Below, one piece after another: positions 6,076 through 58,721 of a stretch of 64,000 bases of DNA. Where the stretch lies: contig NC_088779.1 of the NCBI RefSeq assembly GCF_954871325.1, positions 11,348,846 to 11,412,845 of the forward strand, in the 5' to 3' direction. The notes beneath the pieces were generated by a model. It searched no databases. It saw nothing but the letters and a program-made list of their open reading frames with translations, and was not told where the DNA came from. A program made the position numbers and the translations under genes. Within the stretch, counting starts at the first letter, position 1. Every line of letters begins with the position of its first letter. The DNA comes from Gordionus sp. m RMFG-2023. Taxonomy: Eukaryota; Nematomorpha; Gordioida; Chordodea; Parachordodidae.

Positions 6076-7880
6076 CTATGTACGCAGCAGGGTTGGAGGG
6101 ATCCCCCCCCCAAAGCCAAGAAATGCAGATGTCGGATTATATTTTTCAAAAATATTATTGTTAATATTAATTTATATTTGTTAATATTTATTCCTATCTC
6201 ATATACATATATATATAATTACATTTATTTATCACATTCATCTACTAAGTTATTTTATCAATTAATTTCGATTTCAAGTTTTCCTTGGCGTAATTTACCT
6301 ATTATTTTCAAATTTTAATGGCGTATTATTTATCTAAATTTCTAGTCAAATAATAATTATCTCTTAAACTCCTTGTCCAACAGGGAGAAAGAAATTGCAA
6401 GCTTGTCCAACGAGATCGAGTCTCTGCCATCAAGCAGTAACAGCTTTTATGGAGTTAGAAGAGCCGATTATTAATGCTATTACTGAAATATCACAATGGC
6501 TTGAAAGAAATATAGAAGCAAGAAAATTATTGGATTCAATACTTATTCCAAATTATTTTTTCTCATTAGAATGTATTATTTAATTATAAAACTATTTTAT
6601 GTAATACTTTTCAAAAACATAACATTGACTTGATTAAGAAGATGAGAATAGCGGCAAGCATTTTATTAGAACTCAAGGAAATTAGAGCTAATGTTGATGA
6701 AGAATTTCATATTTTATATGTTATTGTTGAGTCAAAAGCAGAGCTATAGGTATTTAATATTTGTCCCCCTCGACTTGCAGCAAGCAAGCTCATCGTAAAA
6801 ACATTAATATAATATCAGTAGAAGAGTATTATAAAACAAATGTCCCTTCTACCAACCTTTTTCATATGGTGATAGAAAAAAAATATAAATATTTGTTAGA
6901 TTTTTATCATGAAGATGTTAAAATATCTTATGATGCCTTATTAGCTGAATAACTATGATTAAAAGATTAACTATGGTTGATACAGTCCCAAAAAATGCTA
7001 TGGATGCTTTGCATTATTTCAAATACATTTTAGATTATACTCCCAATGTATTATATATATTAGCAGCTCTTTTTTAAACTAATGAGAGAACATTCTCTTT
7101 TTTAAGAAGAATAACAGAGCCTTACAGAGATACCATTTGCAGGACACGGCCCAGATTTTTTTTAAAAATTTTTTCCAGCCCGGGTTCTTTTTTAAAATAA
7201 ACTATATTTATTTTTGATTTTTATAGCTAATAATGGCGATTTCAAATATTTGGTTTTAAAATATACAGCTCGGCCCGAATATTTTTCCTTAAAAAATTTT
7301 CAGGCCGCCCGGGTGTTTTTTTTTAAAAAAATACAAGCCCGGCCCGGGTATATTTAAAAAAATTAAAATACGGTCCGGCTCGGGGGCCGGGCCTGCAAGT
7401 CTGTGAAAAACATACCTATGAAATACAACATCTGAAAGTAGATTGAATGATTTGGATCTTTTGAATATTCATAGTCATATGCCAAGCAAGGATAGATAAT
7501 TGAAAAATTAGCTCAAAACATACAAAATACAATTATTCCTAAAAAACTTTTTGTGTATTAATTTATATTTCCAACATTTAAATTTTTTATAATTTATACA
7601 TTTTAAAAGCTCAAAAAATTCAAATTTCAATTTTGGGTCATTTAAGTGATTCATATCGTGGGTTATATTCACTTTATATTTTTTAATTCACATTTATTTT
7701 CTAGTTTTTCAATGCCGGTTTATATATATAATTTTTTTAATTTACATTAGTTTAAAATTGTGTATTAGAAAAGTTATTAGTCCTAATAAATTTATGCTTA
7801 GTATTTTTAATTAACAATAATATTTCTTAAAAAATATATTATCCCCCCCCCCACAAACCCAATTCCTGCGTATGCGCCTG
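6076..7880 (+). mobile_element. hAT element copy A, decayed transposase
   Basis: The right end CGTATGCGCCTG matches the hAT copies at 10072-12055 and 23032-24139. The left end (TGTACGCAGCAGGG followed by a poly-C run) is a degraded form of CAGGCGCGTATGCAG. Coding fragments on the plus strand include 6395-6583 (CHQAVTAFMELEEPIINAI) and 6761-6952, and at about 7080-7125 NERTFSFLRRIT, which resembles the ERSFS segment of the hAT C-terminal dimerisation domain. Stops and frameshifts are frequent. The coding sequence is further cut by the element at 7135-7405. The whole copy sits inside the RTE relic. Confidence 0.75.
7135..7405. mobile_element. Short GGCCCGG-family element nested in hAT copy A
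   Basis: Ends read CAGAGATACCATTTG and CAAGTCTGTG, relatives of the ends of the element at 3079-3919. The interior carries CCCGGCCCGGG blocks separated by T/A runs. It interrupts the hAT coding sequence right after NERTFSFLRRIT; the host coding sequence resumes at about 7410. No clear target duplication is visible. Non-coding. Confidence 0.65.
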
Positions 7881-16600: not shown

Positions 16601-19393
16601 CACACTTATTTGTTCACCTTAAAAATAAATATTTATTTTTCATAGAAATTCGAGCTTAATAAATCTTAATAACAATTTAGCATCAAACTATTTCAAAATT
16701 TGAGTCTAAAGGGTTTGCTAGTTTTTCTCCGTATATTAGCTTCCTAGACTAAATAAATGTTTTATAAAAAATGTTTTAAGTAAGTAAAACATTATATTGA
16801 ATAAACAGTAGTTTAGGAAAATTCATATTTTAAAAAGTAACTAATTATTTATAACAAGTTACTTTAACACTATTAAAATGGCCATATTTATATAAAATAA
16901 ATTCAATGCAATTATAATTATATTTGGTTTTGCAAATTTAAATTCTTTTGTATGTATATTTAAACCCTTATATGATTAACCTCACAAACTCATTTTTCAC
17001 ACTCAAATTTTTATTAAGTAAAGGTAAGGTAAACTTATATTATTAATATGAAATGTTTAACCTTATAAAGAACCTATTAATCTTTTCATGTATAGTACAA
17101 ATTTTTAATTTTGAAAACATAAATTACCTCAAAATGCCAAATATTTAGCGACATAAATTTTAATGATTTTTTTTAAAAAAATTATCAAACCTTTGAGCCA
17201 AAATTTATCATATTTTAATAAATATTATTGTGTTTATAAAAAATATCATTTATATATATATATATAAAAGCTATAAATTTAATCATCTTTCAAAGTATTA
17301 ATTTGTTCATTGAAGCTCAAATTAGTTCATAAAATTAAACCATATTTTCATTTCTCTAACACCGATCCGAGCCAAATTAAAAAAATATCTTGTTAAAATT
17401 GTACTATATGTCGGCAACCTCTATATTTTGACCAGAACCTAAACACCCTGAAGAGATCACTTTATTCAGGTATCATTGTGTAGTTTTATTGTCATAAAAT
17501 TTTAATTACATAATTAAACACACATTAAAAGTTGTCACCAGGTGAAGTTGCAATTTACAATAAAATGCCTTCTTTTTTTTTTAATTTATAAAAATTTAAT
17601 TTCATTTTTTTGTTTTGAAAATTTTTGATAAAAATTTTGATTGCCAAAAATGTTTATTTTATTATTCATTTAACTTATCTGGACCCTATATGTCGTATTG
17701 AGATATTGAATCCATGGGGATAGGAGTCTCTCGAATGAGAATTATTTATCGAGGATGAGTTTAAATTTTTTTTTAAATATGATTGAAATTTAGTATCTAC
17801 CCTATAAATTTCAGCCAATTTTCTCCATAAACCTTTGTATATTTTTTTAATTTATATAAAAAATCAATATAAAGATCACTATAAATTAAAATTAATTCTA
17901 AATTTCAGGGAAAATTTGTTTGAAATTCATAATGGGGTGCATACTTAAATATATTGGTGTGATTAGAATTTTTGAAACGAACTCTTTCTTAGTAAATAAT
18001 TTATTTGAGAGATTCAGACCTGGATTCCATATTCCAATATGACATATATAATATACATCGAGTGAGGCCAAAACATCATGATATTTAGAATGGTTGATAA
18101 AAAGAAATGATTTAAATATTTTCAAATAAAATTAAGAAATTATATGAATAAAATATCACAGGTAATGAGAACTGCCAAGTCCTGGGCTGTTAAACCTTTT
18201 TTTAAAAAATGATTATACCAAAATCAATCCTATATTGACATATTTTTTTTTAACCAACGAGAATAATTCTTCTATTTTTTTAAATACCCACTTGAAGTTA
18301 TTTTTCATAGACTAATGCTAATGAACTGATATAATATTTACCTTGTGATATCCTAAAGGCCTTATATTCATCCTTTGTTCAAGATTCTCTAGAGAAAAAC
18401 TCTACAGTCTACTATAAAAATGTAATCTAATGCAGTGGCGTATTTCGATAAGAAGACTTTTATTCTGGAGGGGGAAGTGGTGTATGACGCAAGGTTGTTA
18501 TTGAAATTTAAACTGGGTTAATTATGAAGAAACTATCGTCATTTGAATAAAATGTTAGGGAATAGCGGGTAGTTTTGATTCGGATTTTTTTTATTGCAAA
18601 TTTGGATTTCGGGGTACTAGATTAATGGAAAGTATTTTATTTTACCATTAATGGAGGCACTGCATAACATCGTCGTATAAGAGAATATCATTATTTATCT
18701 TGGTAAAGTAATAAAGGAGTTGGGTAAAAATTACTCAAATTGTATTTAAATACAGATAAAGATATTTTTCAAATAATATCCAAGATATAAGATATTTGAG
18801 GAAAATTTTAAAAAAATTCCAATAAAAGTATCCACATGGAAAAATTTTTCTATTTTACCTTGTAGTTTTTCTTAATTTTTTTTTTTAAATTTTATATAAA
18901 AATTTCTTAATTATTCCTACTACCTCAAATTAAACTAATTAAAGTAAACTTAGTAGTATCATGAATGATTTATTTCTTTAATTTGCCCATTTTATTGGAA
19001 TAAAATTTATTTAAACAATATTGACGAAATTATAAATTCCTTCGCTTTCTCTTCTCCTAATCTGTCTAAATTATTCATTTAAATTTTTTTTCAGAGTGTA
19101 TATTTTTTACATTAATATTATATATAGATTTACGAATAAAAATTATATTTGAATTTTTTAATATAATTAACTGCTTTTTTAGAGGGATGTATTTCTTCAA
19201 AGAGGGAGGTGTGGAAAGGGGGGGGGGGATATTTTGTCCAACATTTTCTAATTTTGAATTTGTAAAAGGGTTGAGGAATAAAATTAAAATTTTCTTTAAC
19301 TCAATTTCAACCAAATTGGAGTTAAAACTTTATAATATTCAAACAATGATTAGTTGTATTTTTAAATTTTTGTCATATTTTTTTAAAATATTA
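16601..19393. other. AT-rich DNA upstream of the homeobox exon
   Basis: No coding exon could be supported, although the upstream exon(s) of the homeobox gene might lie here or further upstream. A hAT-like left end (CAGTGGCGTATTTCG, about 18433) followed by GGAGGGGG is visible, without a matching right end. A poly-G run lies at 19218-19227. Confidence 0.4.
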
Positions 19394-20515
19394 GGTTCAC
19401 GGATTAAAAGGAAAAAGACGACATTTGCCATTCCGCCTGTGAATAGCAAGAGCCCTAAAAATTTCACAAATTTTAAAGAGGATTCAACGGATGTCTTAAG
19501 TGATTGTAACAATTCGTTTAACTCGCACAGTATACCAAATCGCAAATTAGAAAACTCTAATAATGAGGTAGATATCAACGGAGAAGTTAAAAATGACATA
19601 GTGAATAACGAGGATAGCAATATCGAGTCCGACATAAATGGTTTAAAACGACCAAGAACGGCGTTTTCTCATGCTCAGCTGCATCGTCTGAGGAAAGAAT
19701 TCCAACAAAATCCCTATTTAACCGAATCCCGGAGGAAAGATTTGGCAAACGATTTAAACTTGAATGAATCCCAGATAAAAATTTGGTTCCAAAACAAAAG
19801 AGCAAAGTTGAAAAAGAAGGCCCAGAAATCTAACGATAAGCCCTTCAGGCCAGTTAGCCCTTCATACAACATTTCTGTTAATAAATTTTCTAAAACATCA
19901 GGAATACCTAGTTTTAAACATAAAAATTTAAACAAACATAGAAAGAGTAACGAAACGTCTTGCGGCTCCATTGGCATTATCACGATTCAAAATACGATCT
20001 CACAATCAATTAAGAGCACGACGAATAATATTTTATTTCCCTTAAATTGTGATAGCTATATCAATAATTCAACATGTGATAAATCTTTTAAAGTTAACAA
20101 TGAGGTCCAAACAAACTCTCCTATGAGTTATAAACCAATGCCTATCTTCTTTCCTACTACTTTTTCCGATTACCCTCGTGTCAAAACAAATTTGGATCCA
20201 AACATTATAAATAAACAAGATTATGGTAGCTCGTTAGCCAAATTAAACAATGTAAAACCTGCTTTCCATGCTACCGGTGAAATAGTAAACTGCTCGATCT
20301 CCGAAAAAACGATATGTAATGATAAAATCACGTTAAAATCAGGACCGCCTTGTCCAAATTTTGATAATAACTCGTTTCTCTATAATTATTACTATTATAT
20401 GTTACCTATATTAGACATATCCAATTATCAACAACAAATTTTTAATAAACCTTTTAGCTTGGACAAAAATTTTATCCAGCACTTTAACAAATATTGCCTG
20501 AATTCGAAAACTTAA
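19394..20515 (+). CDS. Engrailed-like homeodomain protein, probable last exon
   Basis: A long uninterrupted frame encodes a homeodomain at 19643-19822. It reads KRPRTAF at its N-terminal arm and helix 3 contains [15 protein letters not shown], with W48, F49, Q50, N51 and R53. Lys at position 52 together with the KRPRTAF arm is typical of the Engrailed class. The protein would act in the nucleus as a sequence-specific transcription factor. The frame is open from 19187, but a good acceptor (T-rich tract, then TATTAG) ends at about 19393, just before [11 protein letters not shown], so I place the exon start there. The start codon in an upstream exon is not located; ATG at 19187 or 19346 is the alternative. 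The region after the homeodomain is Asn/Ser/Lys-rich, and the Engrailed EH5 motif is not recognisable, nor is the EH2 motif upstream. An intact frame of this length suggests a functional gene. It could also be a divergent NK- or other ANTP-class factor, less likely. Confidence 0.85.
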
Positions 20516-23031: not shown

Positions 23032-24139
23032 CAGGCGCGTATGCAGCGGGGGGGGGGGCAGGGGGACAAATCCCCCCCTCCACAAAACAAAAAATGCAGA
23101 TGGCGGATATATTTTTCAAAAATATTATTGTTTATATTAATTTATATTTGTTAATATTTATTCCTATCTCATATTAAATATATATTTAATTACATTTATT
23201 TATCACATTCATCTACTAAATTATTTTATCAATTAATTCCGATTTAAAGTTTTCCTTGGCGTAATTTACCTATTATTTTCAAATTTTTGGTGGCATAATT
23301 TTTATCTACCATTTTCAAATTTCTAGTCAAATAATAATTATTTCTGAAATTCCTTGTCCAACAGGGAGAAAGAAATTGCAAGCTTGTCCAACGAGATAGA
23401 GTCTCCGCCATAAAGCAGTAACAGCTTTTATGGAGTTAGAAGAGCCGATTATTTACTGAAATATCATAATCGCCTGAAAGAAATATTCCTCAGAAGCAAT
23501 AAAATTATTGGATTTAATGCTTATTGCACAACTATTTTATGTAATACTTTTCAAAAACACATTGACTTGATTAAGAAGATGAGAATAGAGAGCATTTTAT
23601 TAGAAATCAAGGAAAGTAGGGCTAACGTAAAGAATTTTATATTTTATATGTTATTGTTGAGTCAAAGGTAGAGCTATATTTGTCTCCCTCGACTTGCAGT
23701 AAGGCATGCTCATCGTTAAAACATTAAAATAGGATCTGTAGAAGAGTATTTTATAACAAATGTTTCCTCTCATAGATAGATTTATGACCAAAATAAATGA
23801 ATGATTTTTAATTCATCATGCAGCACTTACCAATCTGCAAATTTAACTTCTACAAAAGCCTTCCCAACCTTTTTCAGATGGTGATAGGAAAAAAAATATT
23901 TGTTAGATTTTTATCATGAAGATGTTAAGGTATCTTATGATGCCTTATTAGCTGAATAACTATGTTTAAAAGATTAACTATGGTTGATATAGTTTCAAAA
24001 AATGATATAATTTTTTTATAATTCACATTAATTTAAAATTGTGTATTAGAAATAGTTATTAGTCCTAATAAATTCATGCTTGATATTTTTAAAAAACAAT
24101 ACTTCTTAAACCAAGCCCAAATTCCTGCGTACGCGCCTG
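23032..24139 (+). mobile_element. hAT element copy C, shortened
   Basis: The element starts CAGGCGCGTATGCAG followed by a poly-G run and ends CTGCGTACGCGCCTG, a good terminal inverted repeat. Flanks CCAAATAT (23024-23031) and GCAAATAC (24140-24147) match at 6 of 8 positions, consistent with the 8-bp hAT duplication after mutation. The broken plus-strand translation parallels copies A and B: AVTAFMELEEPII near 23420, and later LLQKPSQPFSDGDRK near 23850. It has many stops and is shorter than copies A and B through internal loss. Confidence 0.8.
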
Positions 24140-27817: not shown

Positions 27818-30800
27818 CTTATAAAATATATAAAAAATAATTATTATTGTTTGTAATATGACTCGACCAGTGATTCGGAAGGAAGGAAGGAAGGAAGGAA
27901 GGGACCATCTCAAAAATGAATGAAACTTGGCATGTTAGTTATTTATGATGTAAATGTTAATAAGATATAAATTTTAGAGCGCCAGCTCAACCAGATCCAA
28001 AAATATACACCTTCAAAGTCGAAATCGCGTAATGCGTGTTTTTATTAAATCTTGTTTTTTTAAAAAATACTTTGGATAGAATTACATTGGAAAATATCGA
28101 AATAAAATTTACAAATTTCATATTTCTAGTAAAAATAAAAAATTAACATTATTAGGAAGGGATTTTTTGGGGGGTGTTTATATTCTCTAAAAATGTTTAT
28201 TACCTTTATATTAAACTATTTAATAAAAAATCTCGATAGCCATTTTTGTTTTTTTTAATATATTATATTTAATAAAAATATGTATTATATTAGTATTAAA
28301 ATTTAAAAAATCGATTAAGTATAACCAATATGATATCCTGGGATAATAAGTAAGGAAGCAGCCCATAAAGATGTGGTTATTAGAACGCTATATTTTAAAA
28401 TAAACATATTTTAAAATATTATATACAAACAATTATAAAAAAAATATTTCTAATCTTATATAATTTTGCGTTTATTAATGGAATTCCTGAGGCTAAAGTT
28501 TGTAGGTGCGTCCTGTCACTATTATGGGATCTACTTTCGTTTTTATTTGATTAATGGGCATAAAAGAAGGATGGTGATCCATGGGGATGTAAAAAGGAAA
28601 TATATAACTCCTCAGTAATTTCATTGTTTTTTAGTAATGCGGCTAATTACCAAAAATCGTCATAAGCCATGTTATGAATCCTTTAATATCAGCAAAAGAC
28701 AAATTATCGGCATTTGAGATATTACTAATTTGAAAGTACTCTGCATGTAAATATATTTATGATTTAAGTTTACTTAAACTCAAATGAAATACAGCATGTA
28801 CCCGAATTACTAGAATGGGGCGAGCTAAATTGAATCTTTCTCGTAGTTTAATCTCTTCTAAATTGTTTTGTTCGTTGGTTATATATGTAAAATTTACTGA
28901 TGGCATGTTTTGTTTTGCAAACTGATATAAATCAACTAGTGTTAAAATGTGTCTAGATGGTGTGCTGAAGGCTTAAAGTGCTGTTAATCTTTTTAATATT
29001 AGGCCAAGGCCGTCACATAGACCTATGGTATGTAGCTAACTGTGCCATTCGCTACACCAAAATCTAATTCATGATAACACAGATTTGATTTTCTGTTTGT
29101 ATATTGTGCAGTTGATCCGTCAGCAGCAATATATTTTACTTATCTTTTGAAATAAATGGTTAAAAATTTTATCATTTTGGTCTGGTATAAATGTACTGCA
29201 ATAACATCATGCAGAAGTGACTCTGATATTATAACAAAATTAAGGTTTTCTATATTGCCATTATTATTATTATATGCGATCATAGGATGGATAGTGGCCT
29301 GATTATTATTCCAGTGGAATCATTGAACAGCGTCTTGGATTATAAAGGCATAATTTTCAGAGAAATTACAAATTATCAACATGGTTGTAAAAAATGTTTA
29401 AGTTTTGACTGATTGGTAGCGATAAATGAATGATGTAACATAGGTGGAATTTTTTTTTTAAATTAAGAATTCTTGAGAAAATTTTGTTATCGTTTCTAGA
29501 TTAATTCTATCAACAGATACCCACTGTTTAAAGGATATATGATCTATGTCATTTTAGGCAAATTAATTGTTCTTTAATTGAGAATGTGTCTGAACAATAG
29601 TCACAATCTCCCAAATAATATAGTGCTGGATTGCATATTGCTTGGGCTAAAATATTTATATAGTTATGTAATGGATATTCTGGAATAGCTAATAGTTTTG
29701 CCAAGTTAGCATCTACAAACATAAGCTTAAAATTTTAATGAATTGCACAAACAAACAATGTGTGTTCCACTGGATCCAGCCAGAATATAATTTTTTAGCC
29801 GTAAATCTGCAAATTTAGAAAATCCAATTTTAATTATAGTACTTCTCTTTAAAAGCAGCTGAATGGCCTTTTTCAGCAATATCCCATGGAAAAGGTCCAT
29901 GTGAAGGCATTTGCGGAACATAAAAAAGTTAGCAGCACGTTCAAGCCTTCAGCGCACTAGTTATGGACACATTTTAACACCAGTTGATTTATATTATTTT
30001 GCAAAACAAAACATGCCATCAGTAAATTTTACATATATAACCAACAAACAATACAATTTAAAAGAGATTAAACTATGAGAAAGATTGAATTTAGCTCGCC
30101 CCATTCTAGGAACTCGGGAAATACATGCTGTATTTCCTTTGAGTTTATGTAAACTTAAATCAAAAATATATTCATATGCAGAGGACTTCCAAATTAACAA
30201 TATCTCAAATGCCGTTAATTTGTCTTTTGCCGATGTTAAAGGATTCGTAACATGTGTTTATGACGATTTTTGGTGGATATCCACAATACTAAAATCACAA
30301 TCTTTCTTTTACCCTACAATTGAGGAAAATATATTGTGGCCCATTAATCAAATAATTACAATAGTAGATCCCATAAAAGTGACAGGAGGTACCTACAAAC
30401 TTTAGCCTCAAGAAATGCTATTAATAAGCGCAAAATTTTTTAAGTTTAAAACATGGGTTATTTTTTTTATAACTGTTTGTATATAAAATTTTAAAAATTA
30501 TTTATTAAAATATAGCGTTCTAATTATTATCCGTATGGGCTTCTTCCTTACTTATTACCCCAGGAAATCATTTTGGTTACACTTAATCGATTTTTTGAAT
30601 TTTAATACCAATACAATATATATTTTTAATTAAATATATTATATTATAAAAAATTTTTTAATATAATGTCATCTATATTATCTTTTATTATTTCTAAAAA
30701 TAAATAAAATTAAAAAAACAAAAATGGCTATCGAGATATTTTATTAAATAGTTTAATATAATGGTAATAAACAATTTTAGAGAATATCAACAACCAAAAA

Positions 30801-33800
30801 AATCCCTTCCTAACAAATTTTTTATTTTAACGGATATTTTTTAAATTTTTTTTCGATATTTTTCAATGTAAAATTTAAGGCTATAAAATGATATATTATT
30901 TGTAATTCTATCTTAAGTATTTTTTTAAAAAAAACACGATTTAATGAAATCATGCATTACGCGATTTCGACTTTGAAGGCGTATATCTTTGGATCTGGTG
31001 CTCTAAAATTTAAATTTTATTAACATTTACAACATAACTAACTAACATGCCAAATTTCATTTATTTTTAGATGGTCGGCCATATCACTAGTCGCGTCATG
31101 GAATTAATTACACAAGTAATAATGTGCGTATTATCTGGTTCAGTAATTTTAGAATAGATAGTAGGTTGATCTTATTTAGTAAAATAACTATAACGTTTTA
31201 TGATTCAAAAATGTTTGACAATATGCATAAATTAAAAATATTTTTGAGGCCTTGATAATTTCATTAGCGATAAATTATAGGTACGCCCAGTCGCTGCTGA
31301 TGGACTCATTATTATTAAAATAATATTTATTGGTTTGAAAAGGTGATCTAGTGTCGCTGGATAAGAAAATATTTTTCATTTCGTCTCTATTTACATTAAC
31401 TTCTTGCACAAATCCTAATTATCAAACGTTTTCATACATACAGATCACATATCCTATTTCATCGATCAATAGATCCTCAAACAAAAAATCCTCACATGGA
31501 TTAACTATATTTCGGTAACAAATGTCTGCAAATAAGAATATATTTCAGCATTGAGCTTAGTTAAACAGATCGGAAACACTGCGTAAATTTTACTATTTGA
31601 TCTGAATAAGGTGTTTGTAAACTTGCCTTAGCAACTAACCTTTTTACTGTGCCGCCTATGCGATCTCAGGCACTTTTACCATGTGCCGTAGCAAAAAATG
31701 TCATTCTGCTTGAACGCCAAAATCAGTTTCATGGTAACAAACATTGATGACGCTTTTCTTTATATTTAGTATCGCGCTGCTGAACCATTAGAAAAGGAAT
31801 ATAATTTTTCCTGGTGGATTGTCGAATTTTTTAAAAAATGAATAAATTGCGATTGAATAAATGGAGTGAAATAGTATCATGAATTAAGGATCCTATTACC
31901 ACAAAGCTTAGGTTGTTTATTTGATCTCCTATTTTATAATAAATTGAGAATGGATGCAACGTAACTTGTGAAGCTGTCCAATGATAACTCTGAACTTCGT
32001 CTAGGAAAATAAAAGAATAGTTTTCCAAAGACACAAATAATTAGATAATTTATTTTCTAAACTATTTATAAGATTATGTTTTAATTATTAAAAATTTCTA
32101 TCATAATATTAAAACACTATAAAAATATAAAAATATAAACAATTTCATAATTGTGTTCCTCAAAGGAAGCTATAGTTAAATCCACAGATTTCTATCTAAA
32201 TTATCTGACGAATATTTAAAAATTCTTTGATTCGGTTGGTAAAATGCGAAATTTTGCTGCCAAAATTTTAAAAACTTATAGGTTAGAAAATGACCGTTTG
32301 TGGAATAAAAAGGAGAGATTTTTGAATTTGTTGATCTGTGTTGTTTCTGCTTGAGTTAGCGAATTTATAGTTTGAGGAGAATGAAGAAACGCATGTGTAA
32401 TCCCACATATGATTTGCCGAGGTCCCAATATAGTTTTCAACAATCAAGTCTTAAGCCATCTGAAATAAATTTGCGGGCTTAAACCTCGATTTATTGCTGT
32501 GTGGAGCTGGTGCCGCCCCTCACTGTATATACATTAAGAAGGCCGTGCCACTTTAAATCAACTGGTGATTTGCATTTGATACAAGCATGTGTAAGTACGA
32601 TGTCCCAAGCTGGATGTAAATCAATGGAAACTCTCAATTGTTCATCTGATAAAGGATTACCAAGGTTATGAATACAGCTCCAAGGATGCAATCTATAGGT
32701 GAATTGCCTTGATATATCGACTTAGTAATTCAATATTAAAGGAGTGAATTTTTTTTATGAGTGATGATTGATGGTAAATGAGCGTTAAAAGGTATAATAG
32801 CCTCCCATTTGTTGGTTAGGTCTACTAATAAAGGATGGCATATGAAGCCTGACAAACGTGGATGAGAAAAATGACAATAAAGATAATAGATTGAATGGAA
32901 AAAAGTATCTACCACACAATTTAGAGGGTAACTGGGCGAGTGATCAATTGAATGAGTTTTATTTAATATTTAAGAATTTTTCTGATGGATTCCGTGGAGT
33001 CCTTTGTTGTATGCCTTCTTGGGAGAGAATCCGAAAATTAAAGGCGGTTGAAAGTCATAAGAGAATTCGATAAATTTAAAATAAAGGAGAAAAGTTTCAT
33101 ATAAAAATTTAAAAAAAGAAAAGAGGCACGATATCTCCCTTGATCCCAAAATCTAGTTGGTAAGTGTTATGTTGACAGCCACATGTTTGATAAATTCGAA
33201 GAGGATTTTAAAACAACGATTTCTTGAAAAAGTGTTGATCTAGTTTTACTACTTGATACAAATATCAGACATATTTTTAAAGGTTACATGTCAATACCGC
33301 GAAAATTTTAGCGCGAAATGTATTATCGCGAATGAATAAAAGCGAATGTCGATTAACGCGAAATATTATTATAGCGAATGCATTACCGCGAATATAATAT
33401 TGCGAATGCATTATAGCGAATATAATACAGCAAAAATATTAAATCGAATGCATTAGCGCTAATGTAATACCGCGAAAGTATTATCGCAAATGTATTATAA
33501 CGAATACAATATAGCGAATGAATTATCGCTAATGCATTATAGCTAATGTATTACCGAGAAAGCATTATCGTGAATGCAATGCAGCAAAAGCTTTACCACG
33601 AATGCATTATAGCAAATGAATTATCGCGAATGCATTAACGCGAAAATGTGAAAGCGTATTAATTATAGAGAATGCTTTATCGCAAGTGTATGATCGCGAA
33701 TGCATTATCTTAAATGAATTACATCAGTTGCAATATCGAGAATGGAGTATGATAAAAATTACAATTTTATATTTATCAGCCTTAAGATAGACTTGGTTGA

Positions 33801-45800: not shown

Positions 45801-48800
45801 GCCGCATAGCAGCAAACTTGAAATCCGGTGAATTCTCGAATAGTGATTACTCATTTGCAAGTATGTCATCAAACGAGAAGGAATCCCAAAAACATTTAAA
45901 ATAATCATGAACAAATCAAAGTTTTCCGATGCCTCGTGCGTGGGTTTTAATCGCCATCAACAACTTTTCCTTTAACCTATTAAATAATATACCATCACAT
46001 ATTATTAGATACAATAATCCCAATTGTTAAAAATTAAAATAAACAAGCGAACAGTAATCTAAAATTAAATAGGTTGCACCAGAAAATAAGACGCCAAATT
46101 ATTAACAAGTATTACGGCGTACTTATTTCGTTGAAAATTGATACTGCAACACTATTTCAAAAATAGGTATATTAATTAGGAATAAATTCTCAGAATATTA
46201 TAGACGGTAATGGAAATCTGAACGTTGTAGAATCATAAAAATCGTAAAAAATCCATATAAATATTAATTTCATGGGAGGAATTATTAGTAAGACCTCAAT
46301 TTAAATCGTATATAGAGTTGCAGAAAACATGATTAAAATGATTGAAGTGTTAAAACACATAAATAGCTAATCACTGTATAATTCAAGTATTAGCAAATAA
46401 ATGACAGCCAAATTTCTAATATAGATGATAGTGATACTGTAAAGGATTCGAAGAAATTACTTCAGGGGATTCAGGTAAACACCCAAAAGATAACATAATA
46501 ACCTTTACTTTGAAATAAGTCACGAATAATTTCAGCAAGATTTTGAAGAGCCTATCTAAAATAATATGAAAAATTTGTTAACCTTCAAAAAATCTTTTAG
46601 ACTAAGTTGTATGCGTTGCTGTGTGAATAGATAGGATACATTTTAAAATTATTTAAATTACATAAACAATTTTATAGTCTTAAAAATAAATTTTATAGCC
46701 TTAAAAATAAATTTTAGTTGTTAAAATAATTTTTTAATATCACCGGGGTGGCCTAATGGGTTAGATGTATGCTTGGAAACAGAAGGACGAAGAAGGACGC
46801 AGGTTCAATCCTGTTAAGGAGAATAAAAACTTTCAAGTTTTTCTTCGATGACTGATGTGTAAAGACAGATAGTATGATGAATTTCGGAGCTTAGAGATGA
46901 TACCCCGGTCACAGGCCTGGACAGCCGGGTGCTAAGGATACCTGTCCAATAAACAAAATGAAGGAAACAAATGGAAATATGAATAAGAAAGCTAGGGCGT
47001 TCCGTCCAAGCGACGCGCAGGGTGTAGACCTCCACCCTGTGAAAAGTAAAATAAAGGTCAAAGCAAAGAAGACAAGATTAGCAAGTTTGAATATTGGGAC
47101 GCTTAAAGGTAAGACGAGAGAGTTGGCATCAATGTTGAACAAGAGAAAAGTTGATATAGCGTGCATACAAGAGACGAAATGGAAAGGTCAGAAGACTTTA
47201 ATGATTGGAGATGGGTATAAATTGTACTATAATGGAATTGTTAGCAATAGAAACGGTGTCGGCATCATCCTCAGTCAAGATCTAACCTCCTCAGTAGTAG
47301 AAGTGAACAGGATCTCTGATAGAATAATGAAGATAAAACTCTGCATTGATCAATCAATACTACCTATCCTTTCAGTATATGCTCCTCAAACGGGTTGCAA
47401 GGAAGAAGAGAAAAATGACTTTAGAGCTATCCTTGATGAAGCTGTAATGGAAATCCCTAAGGATGACCTAGTCATAATTGGTGGTGACTTAAATGCGCAT
47501 GTGCGGAAAGCAAGAGATAGCTACAAAAGGCATCATGGTGGTTTTGGATATGGAGAAAGAAATGATGAAGGAGAGCACGTACTGAAATTTGCGCAAGCCT
47601 TCGACCTTGCCTTAACCAACACCTACTATAAGAAAAAAGACAGTCATTTAATAACATACGAAAGTGGTACAAGGAAAACACAGATAGATTATATGCTAAT
47701 CTCTCGCAGAAGATTAAAAGATGTAATAGACTGCAAAGTCATCCCAGGAGAAGATATCGCCGCATAACACAAGCTACTAGTCATGGATTTACACATCTCA
47801 AATAAATCCACTCAAAACAAGATAAAAATGGAACCATGCATCAAATGGGGCAAATTAAAAACAATGACAAATGCCTTTGCAATCAATGCAAACATTGAAA
47901 CTATAGATTCCTCACAAGTCAGTGAAAAAATGTGGACAGACCTTCCATCCAGATTAATAGACACTGCCAAATCGACACTAGGCTTGACAAATGGAGGCAA
48001 CAAATCATACAAAGAACTATGGTGGTGGAATGAAGAGGTACAAACCACTATAAGGAGAAAAAAAGCCCTTTATAAAATATGGTACAAATCCAAAAACCCA
48101 GATGACAAGACAAGATACAAAAAATCCAAGAGAATAGCTACAAAGTCGGTGGCTAGGGCCAAATCTATGGCATACGATGACATGTATGAAGAACTACATA
48201 CCAAAGAAGGGCAAAATAAAATATACAGATTAGCCAAACAGCGAGAAAAGAACTCTAGGGATATAAACGGAGCTACGAAAGTAATCAAAAATGAAAATGG
48301 GAAATTGATAATAAAGGGAAAAGAAATAATGAATAGATGGAAAGAATATTTTCAGAAGCTTCTCAACTTTAATCCCCACACACTACATCTAGACGAACAC
48401 TCCCCATGTCAAAACCTTGTACAACCTATAACAGAACAAGAAATAATCACATGCCTCAAGCATATGAAAAACAACAAAGCTAGAGGTCCAGACGATATTC
48501 CAATAGAAAGCCTTAAAGCACTAGGAGATGATGGAATACATCTCCTCACAAATCTGTACAATAAAATACTTGGAAATGAAGAGGTTCCCCAAAAATGGAG
48601 GCAGAGCTATCTAGTTCCTATCTTCAAAAATAAAGGGGATCCACACAATTGTCAAAATTACAGGGGCATAAAACTAATGTCACACTTTCTAAAACTATAC
48701 GAAAAAATAATAGAAAAAAGATTGAGACATAATCGAAATAGGAGAGACTCAGTTTGGCTTTATGCCTGGAAGATCAACAACTGATGCTATCCACGCAATT

Positions 48801-51800
48801 AGGCAAATGAGTGAAAAATACAGGGAAAAGAACAAAAAGCTACACATGGTCTTTATCGATCTAGAAAAGGCATTCGATAGAATCCCAAGAAAACTTATCT
48901 GGCGCTACGCCACAAAAAGGTTCCCGAAAAATATATAAGAATAATACAGGATATGTATATGGGTCATACAACAATGGTCCGTAGCACAACAGGTACTTCA
49001 GCAGGCTTCACAATAGCCGAAGGAGTTCATCAAGGGTCGGCTCTCAGCCCACTTCGCTTCATTACAGTAATAGATGTATTAGCAGTCAATACCTCAAACA
49101 GTCCCGTGGAATATGATATTTGCAGATGATATTGTGATATTTGCCGAATCCAAGGATGAAATGAAAGAAAGATTAGTGAGTTGGATAAATATCCTAGAAA
49201 AACACGAACTAAAAGTAAATAGAGAAAAGACGGAGTATATGGTGTTAGGAGGAAGATGAAACAGAGAGTATTGATATAAATAAATGGCAGATATCAGCAA
49301 TTGAAAGCTGCAAATATTTGGGCTCCACTATACAAACAAACGGCACAATAGAAAAAGAGATAATGAGTAAAATTAATCAAGGGTGGTTAAAGTGGAGATC
49401 TTTATCTGGAGTGCTATTTGACAAAAGAATCCCACACAAATTAAAGGGAAAAATTTACAGTTCCATAGTACAACCAACTATTCTATATAGTTCGGAAACA
49501 TGGCCAACCAAAGTATCAGACGAGAGAAGTCTACAAACTATGGAGATGAGAATGCTGAGGATGATTGCTGGGGTAACAAGAAAGGATAAAGTGCACAGTA
49601 CAAGAATACTAAGTAGTTTAAAGGTAGTGCCCATTAAGACTAAGTTAATGGTAAACAGACTTAGGTGGTATGGGAACACAGTGAGAAGGCCTATGAACTA
49701 CATAGGAAATAAGGTTGAGAGTTTGGAAGTGATGGGCAAACGTAAAAGAGGAAGGCCAAAACTTTAATGGGGCCATAAAGTTAGAGCCAACATAAAGAAG
49801 TATAAATTAGATAAAAGAGATTGTATGAATAACAAAAAGTGGAGAGAGATGTTGAAGGAGCTTACCATCAGAAAAGGTGATAGCTAAAGATAAAAAAAAA
49901 AATAATAATTTTTTAATATTTTTTTTATACATGCCTAATTTTTGTAAAATGTACAGATGAAAAATTAAATTGCCATTTGTTTACATCTAGGGTCATGATT
50001 TTCCAAATTAACAAATATTAACATTACTTAAATAAAGCACTCCTGTAGAAAATAGATTTCATCTAGGGAAGCTTTCTTGGAGAAAAACTAGCACACCTTT
50101 ATTGTGACCTAATTGAACGTTTTCGAAAAAGCTAATTAGTTTGCGCTTTTATTGAAGTTTATAAATTGTTATCAATATGCACGATACCATTTGAAATGCA
50201 TTGTTTGTATTTTACATAACAAAGTGCAAACGCTTAATTCAATATTAGATACAAATTTTGAAAATATTGTTATTCAAATTAAAATTTAATAACCCCACAT
50301 TTCTTAAAAAAAATGTTTTAATTAAGTATTTTTTTTGAATAAGTATTTTTTTTGAATAAATATTTTTTTCAGTGCCAATAATTATATGGCAAATTGTTTT
50401 AGTGCAAATATTTTTTTTATTTAAATTGTTTATATATTTAATTCCCTTTGATTTCAATTTGTAAAAATTTTACAAAATAAAAAAATTATATTTAAAATGA
50501 TGAATTACCTAGGCATCCTGGACAAAATTTTAAAAGCTAGGCTAGGTGGGCCTTGCTGGTAAAAAAAATTTGGACAAGATAGTCAGATTCAGACTTAAAA
50601 TTAATTTTTTGGTCAATAACAGTTACAAAAACAGGTTCAATGCAGGACTCTAATATAGTAATTTTAGTGAAATCAAAATTTTAAATATTTTTCAAGCATG
50701 ATTGTTACACCAACTAATGGAACCTTTCAAAAATAATATTCATTTAGTTTATAATTAATTACACTTCTTAATTAATATAATATCGAAATATCAACTTTAT
50801 GTTTGTATATTATTATCTAATAATATTTAATAACTTAATTTCATATATTCCTAAAGATATATTTCAATAATAAACACTGATTTAATGTAATCATTAAAAA
50901 AATTAAACTATTTTGCAAAAATCGTATATTAAATATCTAGGAACTTTCTGTTTGAATATTTTTCCTATAATTATTATAATATAAAACATGCATGTAACCA
51001 ATGCCTTAATAACAAATTTGGCTGTTCTCATAAATATCAATATAAGCAATAAAAATCCCCCCCCCCACTCTTTCCTAAAAATGTATACAATGTAACACTA
51101 TAAAGAATGAAAAATTAGTAAAACTTAATAACTTTTAAAATAATTTAAAATTTTTAAAAAATATAAAAATATAAGTAAAAACCAAAAACAATTTTTTATA
51201 AAAATATAATATAGTCAAAGGCCTATAACTATAATAAGTGAACCTAAAGACCTCCAATAAAATTTATTGTAGAAACCCCCAAGTGTTTCCCTCCGCCTAT
51301 AAAAAATACTGGATACACCTATGTTATTAAAATAGCAGCCTAAATTTATCAAGATTTAGAAAATTTTGATACTCCTAAGTATCTGCAGGAAAATCATATA
51401 TTTTTTCTATAATATACTAAAACCTTATGATAATATGATACAGGGGAGGTTATTATTGTAGGAACAAATGATGTCACTCCATGTTTTAGCAACTTTTCAC
51501 CAACAAATTGAATATCTTTATTAGGGTCATGGTGATCTTGAAGTTGGGAAAAGTCAATTCCAAATGCACCTTGTAAATATTATTTTAAATATATTGATAT
51601 AATGGAATGTAAATGTTACCATTAATTTGGACGTCTATAAAACCAGGTGAAATAATGTTATTATTACAAAAATAGACCTCATCCGCAATCCTTTTTTCAT
51701 CAAAGAAAACAGGCTTTGGATCAATAATTTTACCTCTACGTACCCATATATCTTCTTTAAATATTTTGTGATCCCTTAATATGAAACAATCTGTAAACTG

Positions 51801-57755: not shown

Positions 57756-58187
57756 AATTGGATTGTTTGAAGAAAAAATAAAAAATAACCTTAACATAAT
57801 TCTAAATAATCAAACTCAAAACGGTTAACATAATAAAACTCATATTTACGAATTTAATTTTTATTATTAAGAACCAGGAATAACAAAAGCATGAAAAAGC
57901 AGATATCACATTTTAGCCAAAAAAAATATATTACCAAAGTCTTGAGAATCCTTTTTTGACAATATCTCAAGACTTGTAAATCTGCTACATGATATAATTT
58001 AAATTCTCTTCGATGATAAAAATCGTTATTTTATAATAATATATTGCCACTTCTCCGCTTTATTTAAATTTGTAATTATATATGAATAAAATTATATATA
58101 GAATAAATGTTTCTATAAAACAATATTAAATAAACAAATCACATATTTTTTCTCTTTATCTCTAATAAACTAAATTATATATTTTCA

Positions 58188-58721
58188 ATGGACGAATATT
58201 CCATTGAATGTCTGATGAAAAATAATTTAAAAATATTGAATAATATCTTACCCAAAAATGATGAGTGCTTGATAGAAATAATGTTTAAAAGAGATGAGGA
58301 AAAATTGAGAAAGTTATTGATATCCGAAGATTCTGTGGATTCCGATGCCGATAGCTCATCAATAGATTCTATTTATCCTCTGAATTTGTTCAAGTATTTG
58401 AAATTCTATTTTGAAGAGTTGAAGGCTTTTATGGTAGAGAATAGAATTCAACTAGAACATGGATCCACCAAAAACACCAAATCCGTGTCACTGAAATCAC
58501 AATTAAAACAATTGTCCACTCATTATTACCAAAAGGGATACACTCATATAGTTAACTCCTCGAAGACTTATTTTTCCCAGATAGCGGAGTGGAAGGAAGA
58601 AGATGGCCTTCATGATTTGATAAATTTCGCTTTTAAAACATGTTCTTTGCCTCAAACGGAATTGATAGATCACGCGAAGAAGTTTGAGGAAAGAGAAGAA
58701 ATGCGCAAAACTGACATTTAA
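58188..58721 (+). CDS. Uncharacterised 177-residue protein
   Basis: An ATG-initiated frame of 178 codons ends at TAA. It is longer, less AT-driven and more varied in composition than any random frame nearby. I do not recognise the family. Residues 1-45 look helical and charged (KNNLKILNNILPKNDECLIE; RDEEKLRKLL), residues 46-62 are an acidic Ser/Asp stretch (SEDSVDSDADSSSIDS), and residues 63-177 look mainly helical (FKYLKFYFEELKAFMVENRI; LKQLSTHYYQKGYTHI; DHAKKFEEREEMRK). No signal peptide or membrane segment is seen, so a soluble intracellular protein is likely. It may be a complete single-exon gene or a terminal exon; no strong acceptor lies just upstream. A retroposed or transposon-derived origin cannot be excluded. 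Confidence 0.55.
   Translation: MDEYSIECLMKNNLKILNNILPKNDECLIEIMFKRDEEKLRKLLISEDSVDSDADSSSIDSIYPLNLFKYLKFYFEELKAFMVENRIQLEHGSTKNTKSVSLKSQLKQLSTHYYQKGYTHIVNSSKTYFSQIAEWKEEDGLHDLINFAFKTCSLPQTELIDHAKKFEEREEMRKTDI

Follow-up and report, generated by a model that had tools for sequence, protein, structure and literature searches.

Heads derived from small-RNA genes are a hallmark of short interspersed nuclear elements (SINEs), and SINEs are known to borrow their ends from elements of the RTE type. The question raised by the locus described here is whether a protein-coding long interspersed nuclear element (LINE) can itself carry such a head. The locus lies in a stretch of 64,000 nt (the window) from the 287 Mb assembly of the horsehair worm Gordionus sp. 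m RMFG-2023, Gordionus being a genus of the Nematomorpha. The original prediction for this stretch was that a LINE and a tRNA-like 5' head had been mobilised together, and this is borne out by many separate copies that share the same junction and have different target duplications. The insertion in the window is very probably a degenerate member of an established and recently active RTE-type LINE family, the full-length copies of which are tRNA-headed.

Structure of the insertion

The perfect 16-bp duplication that had been noted around the tRNA-like part and a roughly 3-kb endonuclease–reverse transcriptase element was readily recovered: AATAATTTTTTAATAT occurs exactly twice in the window, and the two copies flank one insertion of ~3.2 kb. 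With independent bases and the composition of the window, the chance of this 16-mer recurring no more than 60 nt from the 3' end is ~5e-6. The internal promoter motifs were sought as a pair, box A (consensus TRGYNNARNGG) and box B (consensus GGTTCRANNC), 28–60 nt apart on both strands. A single strict pair turned up in the whole window, both strands counted, at 46749; the 40 first-order Markov windows contained none. The parts of the insertion are as follows.

46725..46740, + strand: 5' target-site duplication AATAATTTTTTAATAT, an exact 16-mer repeat, the final AT of which may be the element's own
46739..49903, + strand: whole insertion, a putative RTE-type LINE with a tRNA-like head, an A-type copy with a broken frame
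46741..46815, + strand: tRNA-like head
46749..46759, + strand: box A TGGCCTAATGG, from the motif search
46781..46800, + strand: 10-nt tandem duplication between the boxes (agaaggacga agaaggacgc)
46802..46811, + strand: box B GGTTCAATCC, from the motif search
46816..46957, + strand: remaining 5' untranslated region (UTR), common as far as the ATG to the LINE and the short S family
46825..46842, + strand: possible hairpin AAAAACTTTCAAGTTTTT, ending in a run of five T (T5; 46838–46842) that resembles a terminator of RNA polymerase III (pol III)
46958..47764, + strand: first frame piece, with its ATG at 46958 and an apurinic/apyrimidinic (AP)-type endonuclease domain, PF03372
47768..49767, + strand: reverse transcriptase part, its frame broken into several pieces, with PF00078 within 48726–48935
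49853..49903, + strand: 3' end with an A-rich tail, common to the LINE and the S family
49904..49919, + strand: 3' target-site duplication, the second copy of AATAATTTTTTAATAT, an exact 16-mer repeat

The reading frame is interrupted at 47765–47767 by an in-frame stop and further downstream by frame changes, and the endonuclease (PF03372, E=3.8e-11) and reverse transcriptase (PF00078, E=1.2e-10) matches fall in separate frame pieces; two further pieces of the LINE gave no Pfam match. An AP-type endonuclease is supported by the PF03372 match, and PF14529 reached 27.3 bits with a cut-off of 27.4. The best matches of the endonuclease include insect proteins named 'craniofacial development protein 2-like' (45–50% identity), relatives that we take to be RTE proteins. 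Judged from the names of these homologues, the LINE appears to be of the RTE type.

A family of headed copies in the host genome

A genome-wide search for the same junction within different target duplications had been proposed as the check on joint mobilisation, and its outcome is favourable. With 46725–47200 as query against the host genome, 40 of the 41 matches listed, the window copy included, span the head–LINE junction, only the best of 989 first-pass candidates having been scored. Fourteen plus-strand loci were compared in register, besides which 16 lay on the minus strand; in these 14 the flanking sequences cease to agree at the head. Forty nucleotides from box A onward recur at 110 places in the host genome (three or fewer mismatches; control 0). 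All 20 loci fetched from these places by the head pattern run on into the same 5' UTR, 16 as LINE copies, several of them internally deleted, and four as members of the short family, so the head is not confined to a separate SINE. Exact two-box heads occur at 218 places and the LINE 5' UTR motif at 434 (three or fewer mismatches), both with a control of 0. A search through the flanks of the head, disregarding most of box A and all of box B, found 204 places (control 0); among the 23 of these that were printed, TRGYNNARNGG fits 21 and GGTTCAATCC is kept in all 23. On contig 1, an exact two-box head lies upstream of 39 of the 68 exact 5' UTR motifs. Two scans of viral contigs revealed no relative, and one pattern match that has no similarity to the element.

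Target duplications were sought in the 20 head-chosen loci and in ten pairs of the B subfamily. Duplications of 10–18 nt were found in nine of the former, that is, in nine of the 12 with a located 3' end; the shortest, of 10 nt in AT-rich DNA, are weak taken singly. All seven full-headed B copies examined have duplications of their own, of 11–18 nt. The other three of the ten B pairs are 5'-truncated copies, one with an 8-nt repeat only (L076) and two with no usable duplication (L072 and L082).

The head and the LINE were inserted together, as the target duplications and the uniform junction show. A SINE inserted next to a LINE is ruled out by the single target duplication around both and by the same uniformity. 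The original prediction had also allowed for a single template switch, which may be pictured as one chimeric insertion that joined a SINE or tRNA transcript to LINE RNA. Such events have a precedent in mammals, where the accessible part of one report describes 21 loci of tRNA/LINE-1 chimeras that likewise hold tRNA sequence and LINE inside one target duplication (PMC13174262). As far as that part of the report goes, however, those chimeras are single insertions, mostly of antisense tRNA halves, and form no propagating family (PMC13174262). With the junction common to many copies that have different target duplications, a one-off switch is rejected for the window copy, and as an account of the headed element its probability is negligible; the founding event may have been one.

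The seven full-headed B copies differ from one another by 0.3–0.9% over 1.7–1.9 kb, and three of them (L020, L026 and L028) are stop-free over the 580 codons read; the other four are not. LINEs of the RTE clade have endonuclease and reverse transcriptase in a single frame of about 1000 aa. Frames of 1004–1006 aa are listed at more than 20 places, one of which, L014, contains a stop on translation, so that the listing is no proof of intact full-length frames. The frame listed for L014 (G000:C1:35351177) has 1005 aa despite the in-frame stop in its sequence. A search with the diverged LINE copy L141 gave mainly young B copies, so that few loci represent the older lineage. Because types A and B and the diverged copy all carry the head, it was probably gained before the three separated.

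The start of the element and 5' truncation

That the tRNA-like part comes first after the duplication, as originally described, holds for its place at the 5' end of the element but less well for the exact base. Of the 16 duplications of at least 10 nt, 14 end 1–4 nt short of the first C of the head, and the bases left between are T in six cases, AT in six, ATT in one and ATTT in one. Because the duplications stop short of this C and leave T or AT in 12 copies, the element probably begins at ATCGCC, which is 46739 in the window, and not at 46741. The duplication of the window copy itself includes the AT.

To learn whether the head is optional, copies have to be chosen without regard to it. Endonuclease sequence alone picked out 39 copies besides that in the window, of which 38 were examined (C3:26856895 was left out). 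The whole head is present in 21, which start at +1 to +3. Eight start at +7 to +13 (L069, L076, L079, L080, L084, L107, L111 and L112), and the remaining nine start singly at +56, 94, 104, 129, 182, 233, 314, 318 and 507, the copy that starts at +104, on C177, being rearranged. No headless full-length start recurs among the 38, and it is not the case that the other LINE copies of the genome begin without the head, since none of the nine strongly truncated starts is repeated. The distribution of starts looks like ordinary 5' truncation, with extra stops gathered in the first, G-rich strand of the head. The truncations of 6–12 nt lie within this strand, as if the reverse transcriptase often halts at a stem. 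A separate headless RTE lineage was also considered, a thought prompted by the unlike appearance of two proteins (P0027 and P0113); all three loci obtained through P0027 belong to the same family, and one of them, L114, is truncated at +26.

The short S family

The S family shares positions 3–218 of the LINE, nearly the whole 5' UTR, and has an unrelated middle that occurs at 34 places in the host genome (three or fewer mismatches). It is probably non-autonomous. Four of the 20 head-chosen loci belong to it (L031, L040, L043 and L044); the last ~50 nt are common with the LINE in three of the four, and L040 has a 15-nt target duplication. Since the S family keeps the two ends around an unrelated middle, transcription and the LINE machinery probably depend on these parts, the shared 5' module and the last ~50 nt. 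In L040 and L134 the middle holds diverged internal repeats resembling GATACACCGGTGGGAGATC, and its length varies among copies.

Eighteen S loci were chosen by their middle. The box B core is present in 13 of them and was not found in the other five within the 391 bases taken from each. A fitting box A accompanies it in nine of the 13 (L118, L119, L120, L121, L124, L128, L129, L131 and L132), as TGGTGCAGTGG in seven and as TGGTACAGTGG and TGGTTAAGTGG in one each, whereas in two others with the box B core (L116 and L127) box A breaks the motif and two more (L117 and L133) are without box A. The commonest variant differs from the LINE box A TGGCCTAATGG at four positions, and every change is allowed by the consensus; four random changes would all be allowed with a chance of ~0.006, a figure calculated post hoc. 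Heads of the TGGTGCAGTGG type occur at 19 places (three or fewer mismatches).

The direction in which the head was passed between the two families is a matter of choice between two histories. By one, recombination within the 5' UTR that both possess brought a head from the S family, or from a SINE like it, into the LINE; by the other, the S family is a deleted LINE. The near-canonical tRNA spacing of the boxes in S copies and their more varied heads favour a transfer from S, and RTE-derived SINEs are described, in the part of the source available, as gaining small-RNA heads and exchanging parts (PMC7245038). The diverged LINE copy L141 also has the 44-nt spacing, however, so that neither family need have had the head for longer than the other, and we regard transfer from S to LINE as possible, at somewhat below an even chance.

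Relationship of the head to tRNA

The heads were compared with 15 distinct tRNA genes of the host, from 18 listed. Their scores exceed those of nearly all dinucleotide shuffles: of 1000 shuffles, none reached the score of L031, one that of the window head and two that of the B head, and for four other heads 0 to 5 of 2000 did so. The head stretch AAGGTCCCAGGTTCAATCCTGGG is identical to a host tRNA-Phe at 21 of 23 positions. Box A and box B are 44 nt apart in L141 and L134, the spacing of ordinary tRNAs, 43 nt apart in L031 and 53 nt apart in the window copy and L024.

Several results weigh against the main reading, that of a LINE family with a tRNA-related head. ARAGORN found no tRNA gene in the window, and with Rfam neither the window nor any of 14 loci gave a tRNA match at E<=10. 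The best-matching tRNA varies by copy (Arg, Thr, Met). In alignment A1 (21 chosen copies), taken without the copy at C1:14303184, covariation in the RNA helices of the 5' UTR does not exceed that of shuffles. Two of the 23 printed flank-chosen copies have a broken box A, and the S copies L116 and L127 break its motif as well. Finally, 29 of the 68 contig 1 5' UTR motifs lack an exact two-box head, several of these being known truncated or mutated heads. In nine rows of alignment A1 (L031, L040, L044, L134, L136–L138, L140 and L141), which were picked by patterns with box A in them, box A is conserved by construction; the LINE copy L014, the S copies L116 and L127 and truncated ones were not aligned.

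One reading of these negatives is that the head comes neither from a tRNA nor from a SINE and is the LINE's own 5' end, with box motifs that arose there or were kept for some other use. The missing covariance-model match and the inconsistent isotype would fit this. Such a history would leave the two boxes at tRNA spacing in L141 and L134, the near-identity to tRNA-Phe and the shuffle scores without explanation, and it would not account for S-family variants of box A that mostly keep the motif; we consider it unlikely. The head is therefore best described from its letters as tRNA-related, and no parent tRNA is named, because no tRNA model matches and the best isotype changes between copies. A tRNA-Arg was the best candidate parent at first and was dropped when other copies preferred Thr or Met. 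The head at G000:C1:14303184-14303284 has another fitting box A, TGGTCCAGTGG, and reads CCCGGG before TTCAAT and CCGGG after it where most copies have CAGG and CCTGG, so that a T-arm-like hairpin is kept.

Self-cleaving ribozymes resembling that of hepatitis delta virus (HDV) occur at the 5' ends of R2 and some RTE elements, and the 5' end of the present family might be one of these, its boxes being incidental. The head opens with CCGGGGTG, and a sequence complementary to it, CACCCCGG, lies ~155 nt downstream; the helix of the two is paired in 90% of cells of the alignment, and in the window the complement of the head's start is CCCCGG at 46903–46908. The element seems to begin 3 nt before this helix, however, no adjoining P3-like helix could be seen by eye, the helices are without covariation, and neither the window nor the 14 loci had a ribozyme match in Rfam at E<=10, all of which makes an HDV-like ribozyme very improbable here.

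Transcription and mobilisation

A tRNA-related head at the extreme 5' end invites the suggestion that it is a promoter. The order of start (the A at +1), box A (+11), box B and T5 run is that of a type 2 pol III unit, and an internal promoter in the head that fixes the start at +1 is slightly favoured over the alternatives. Pol III stops at runs of the T5 type. Each of the nine LINE rows of A1 has TTTTT after box B, and the run is intact in 20 of the 21 rows, one S row having TTTT; it could form the 3' side of the hairpin. Within the part of the open reading frame (ORF) read, TTTT runs are not depleted, with two observed and ~2.4 expected from synonymous shuffles; the count covers five of six copies, L025 being out of frame and L014 and L024 having one stop each. 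Both results, the T5 run after box B and the undepleted TTTT runs of the ORF, tell against transcription of the whole LINE by pol III, and the LINE mRNA is probably not the work of pol III alone. A similar argument has been made for SVA elements, according to the part of the source available (PMC2666806).

Because of the position of the T5 run, pol III, if it acts at the head, might give mainly an RNA of ~100 nt, and the full LINE mRNA might come from RNA polymerase II (pol II) or from read-through, in either case from the same start. A bolder scheme, which we think doubtful, has the whole LINE lineage driven by its own tRNA-type promoter. In it, TFIIIC-type boxes near +11 and at +55 to +64 would set the start of a 3.2-kb coding RNA, made by pol III passing through T5 or by pol II recruited to the head; head and T5 would give a separate RNA of ~100 nt, and the S family would be a trans-mobilised twin that shares the module.

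Whichever polymerase is responsible, the RNA of the element would start at A(T)CGCC, and the head, the remaining 5' UTR and the endonuclease–reverse transcriptase frame would be copied together by target-primed reverse transcription, each complete insertion taking its head to a new site. The target-primed step is put forward by analogy with the known biology of LINEs.

Comparison with known systems

The LINE resembles elements of the RTE/BovB type in its AP endonuclease, reverse transcriptase, short 3' end and A-rich tail. In its 5' head with box A and box B it resembles the tRNA-derived SINEs (SINE2), but these encode no protein whereas the Gordionus element carries endonuclease–reverse transcriptase sequence and is hence not a SINE. 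The closest parallels are bipartite RTE-derived SINEs with tRNA, 5S or 7SL heads, such as SINE1-1_EBu and SINE2-1_EBu of the hagfish, which combine a small-RNA-type head, part of an RTE 5' UTR and an RTE 3' end, with duplications of ~17 nt, as set out in the accessible part of the source (PMC7245038). The Gordionus S family follows the plan of these SINEs with the addition of an unrelated middle. The elements described there are non-autonomous, whereas in Gordionus the protein-coding LINE itself is headed (PMC7245038, same part). A tRNA-headed SINE subfamily has also been described as spreading inside a non-autonomous Mariner in Heliconius (PMC4016481, in part).

In the openly licensed literature, searched by title and beginning of abstract for LINEs with tRNA heads or pol III promoters, neither an RTE LINE nor any other autonomous LINE bearing a tRNA head was found. 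A tRNA head on an autonomous LINE thus appears to be new, although a record of it may exist in other places. The same literature held nothing specific on retrotransposons of Nematomorpha, and the present family adds a description of one. In Gordionus the head sits on a protein-coding LINE, on copies of long standing as well as on very recent ones, and a short family with both of the same ends exists alongside. This makes it possible to ask in a natural setting if a protein-coding retrotransposon can be served by a promoter of the tRNA type, and which direction head transfer between SINEs and LINEs takes.

Other features of the window

Two further open frames lie on the forward strand, and three sets of repeats were noted.

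19070-20515, + strand: open frame with a homeodomain (PF00046, E=3.3e-22), presumably engrailed-like from its look
58134-58721, + strand: open frame of 195 aa with no Pfam match
27903-29024 and 29893-31076: arms of an inverted repeat, 76% alike over ~1.2 kb
6101-6843 and 23070-23763: dispersed direct repeat, 82%
33292-33721: overlapping self-matches at short distance

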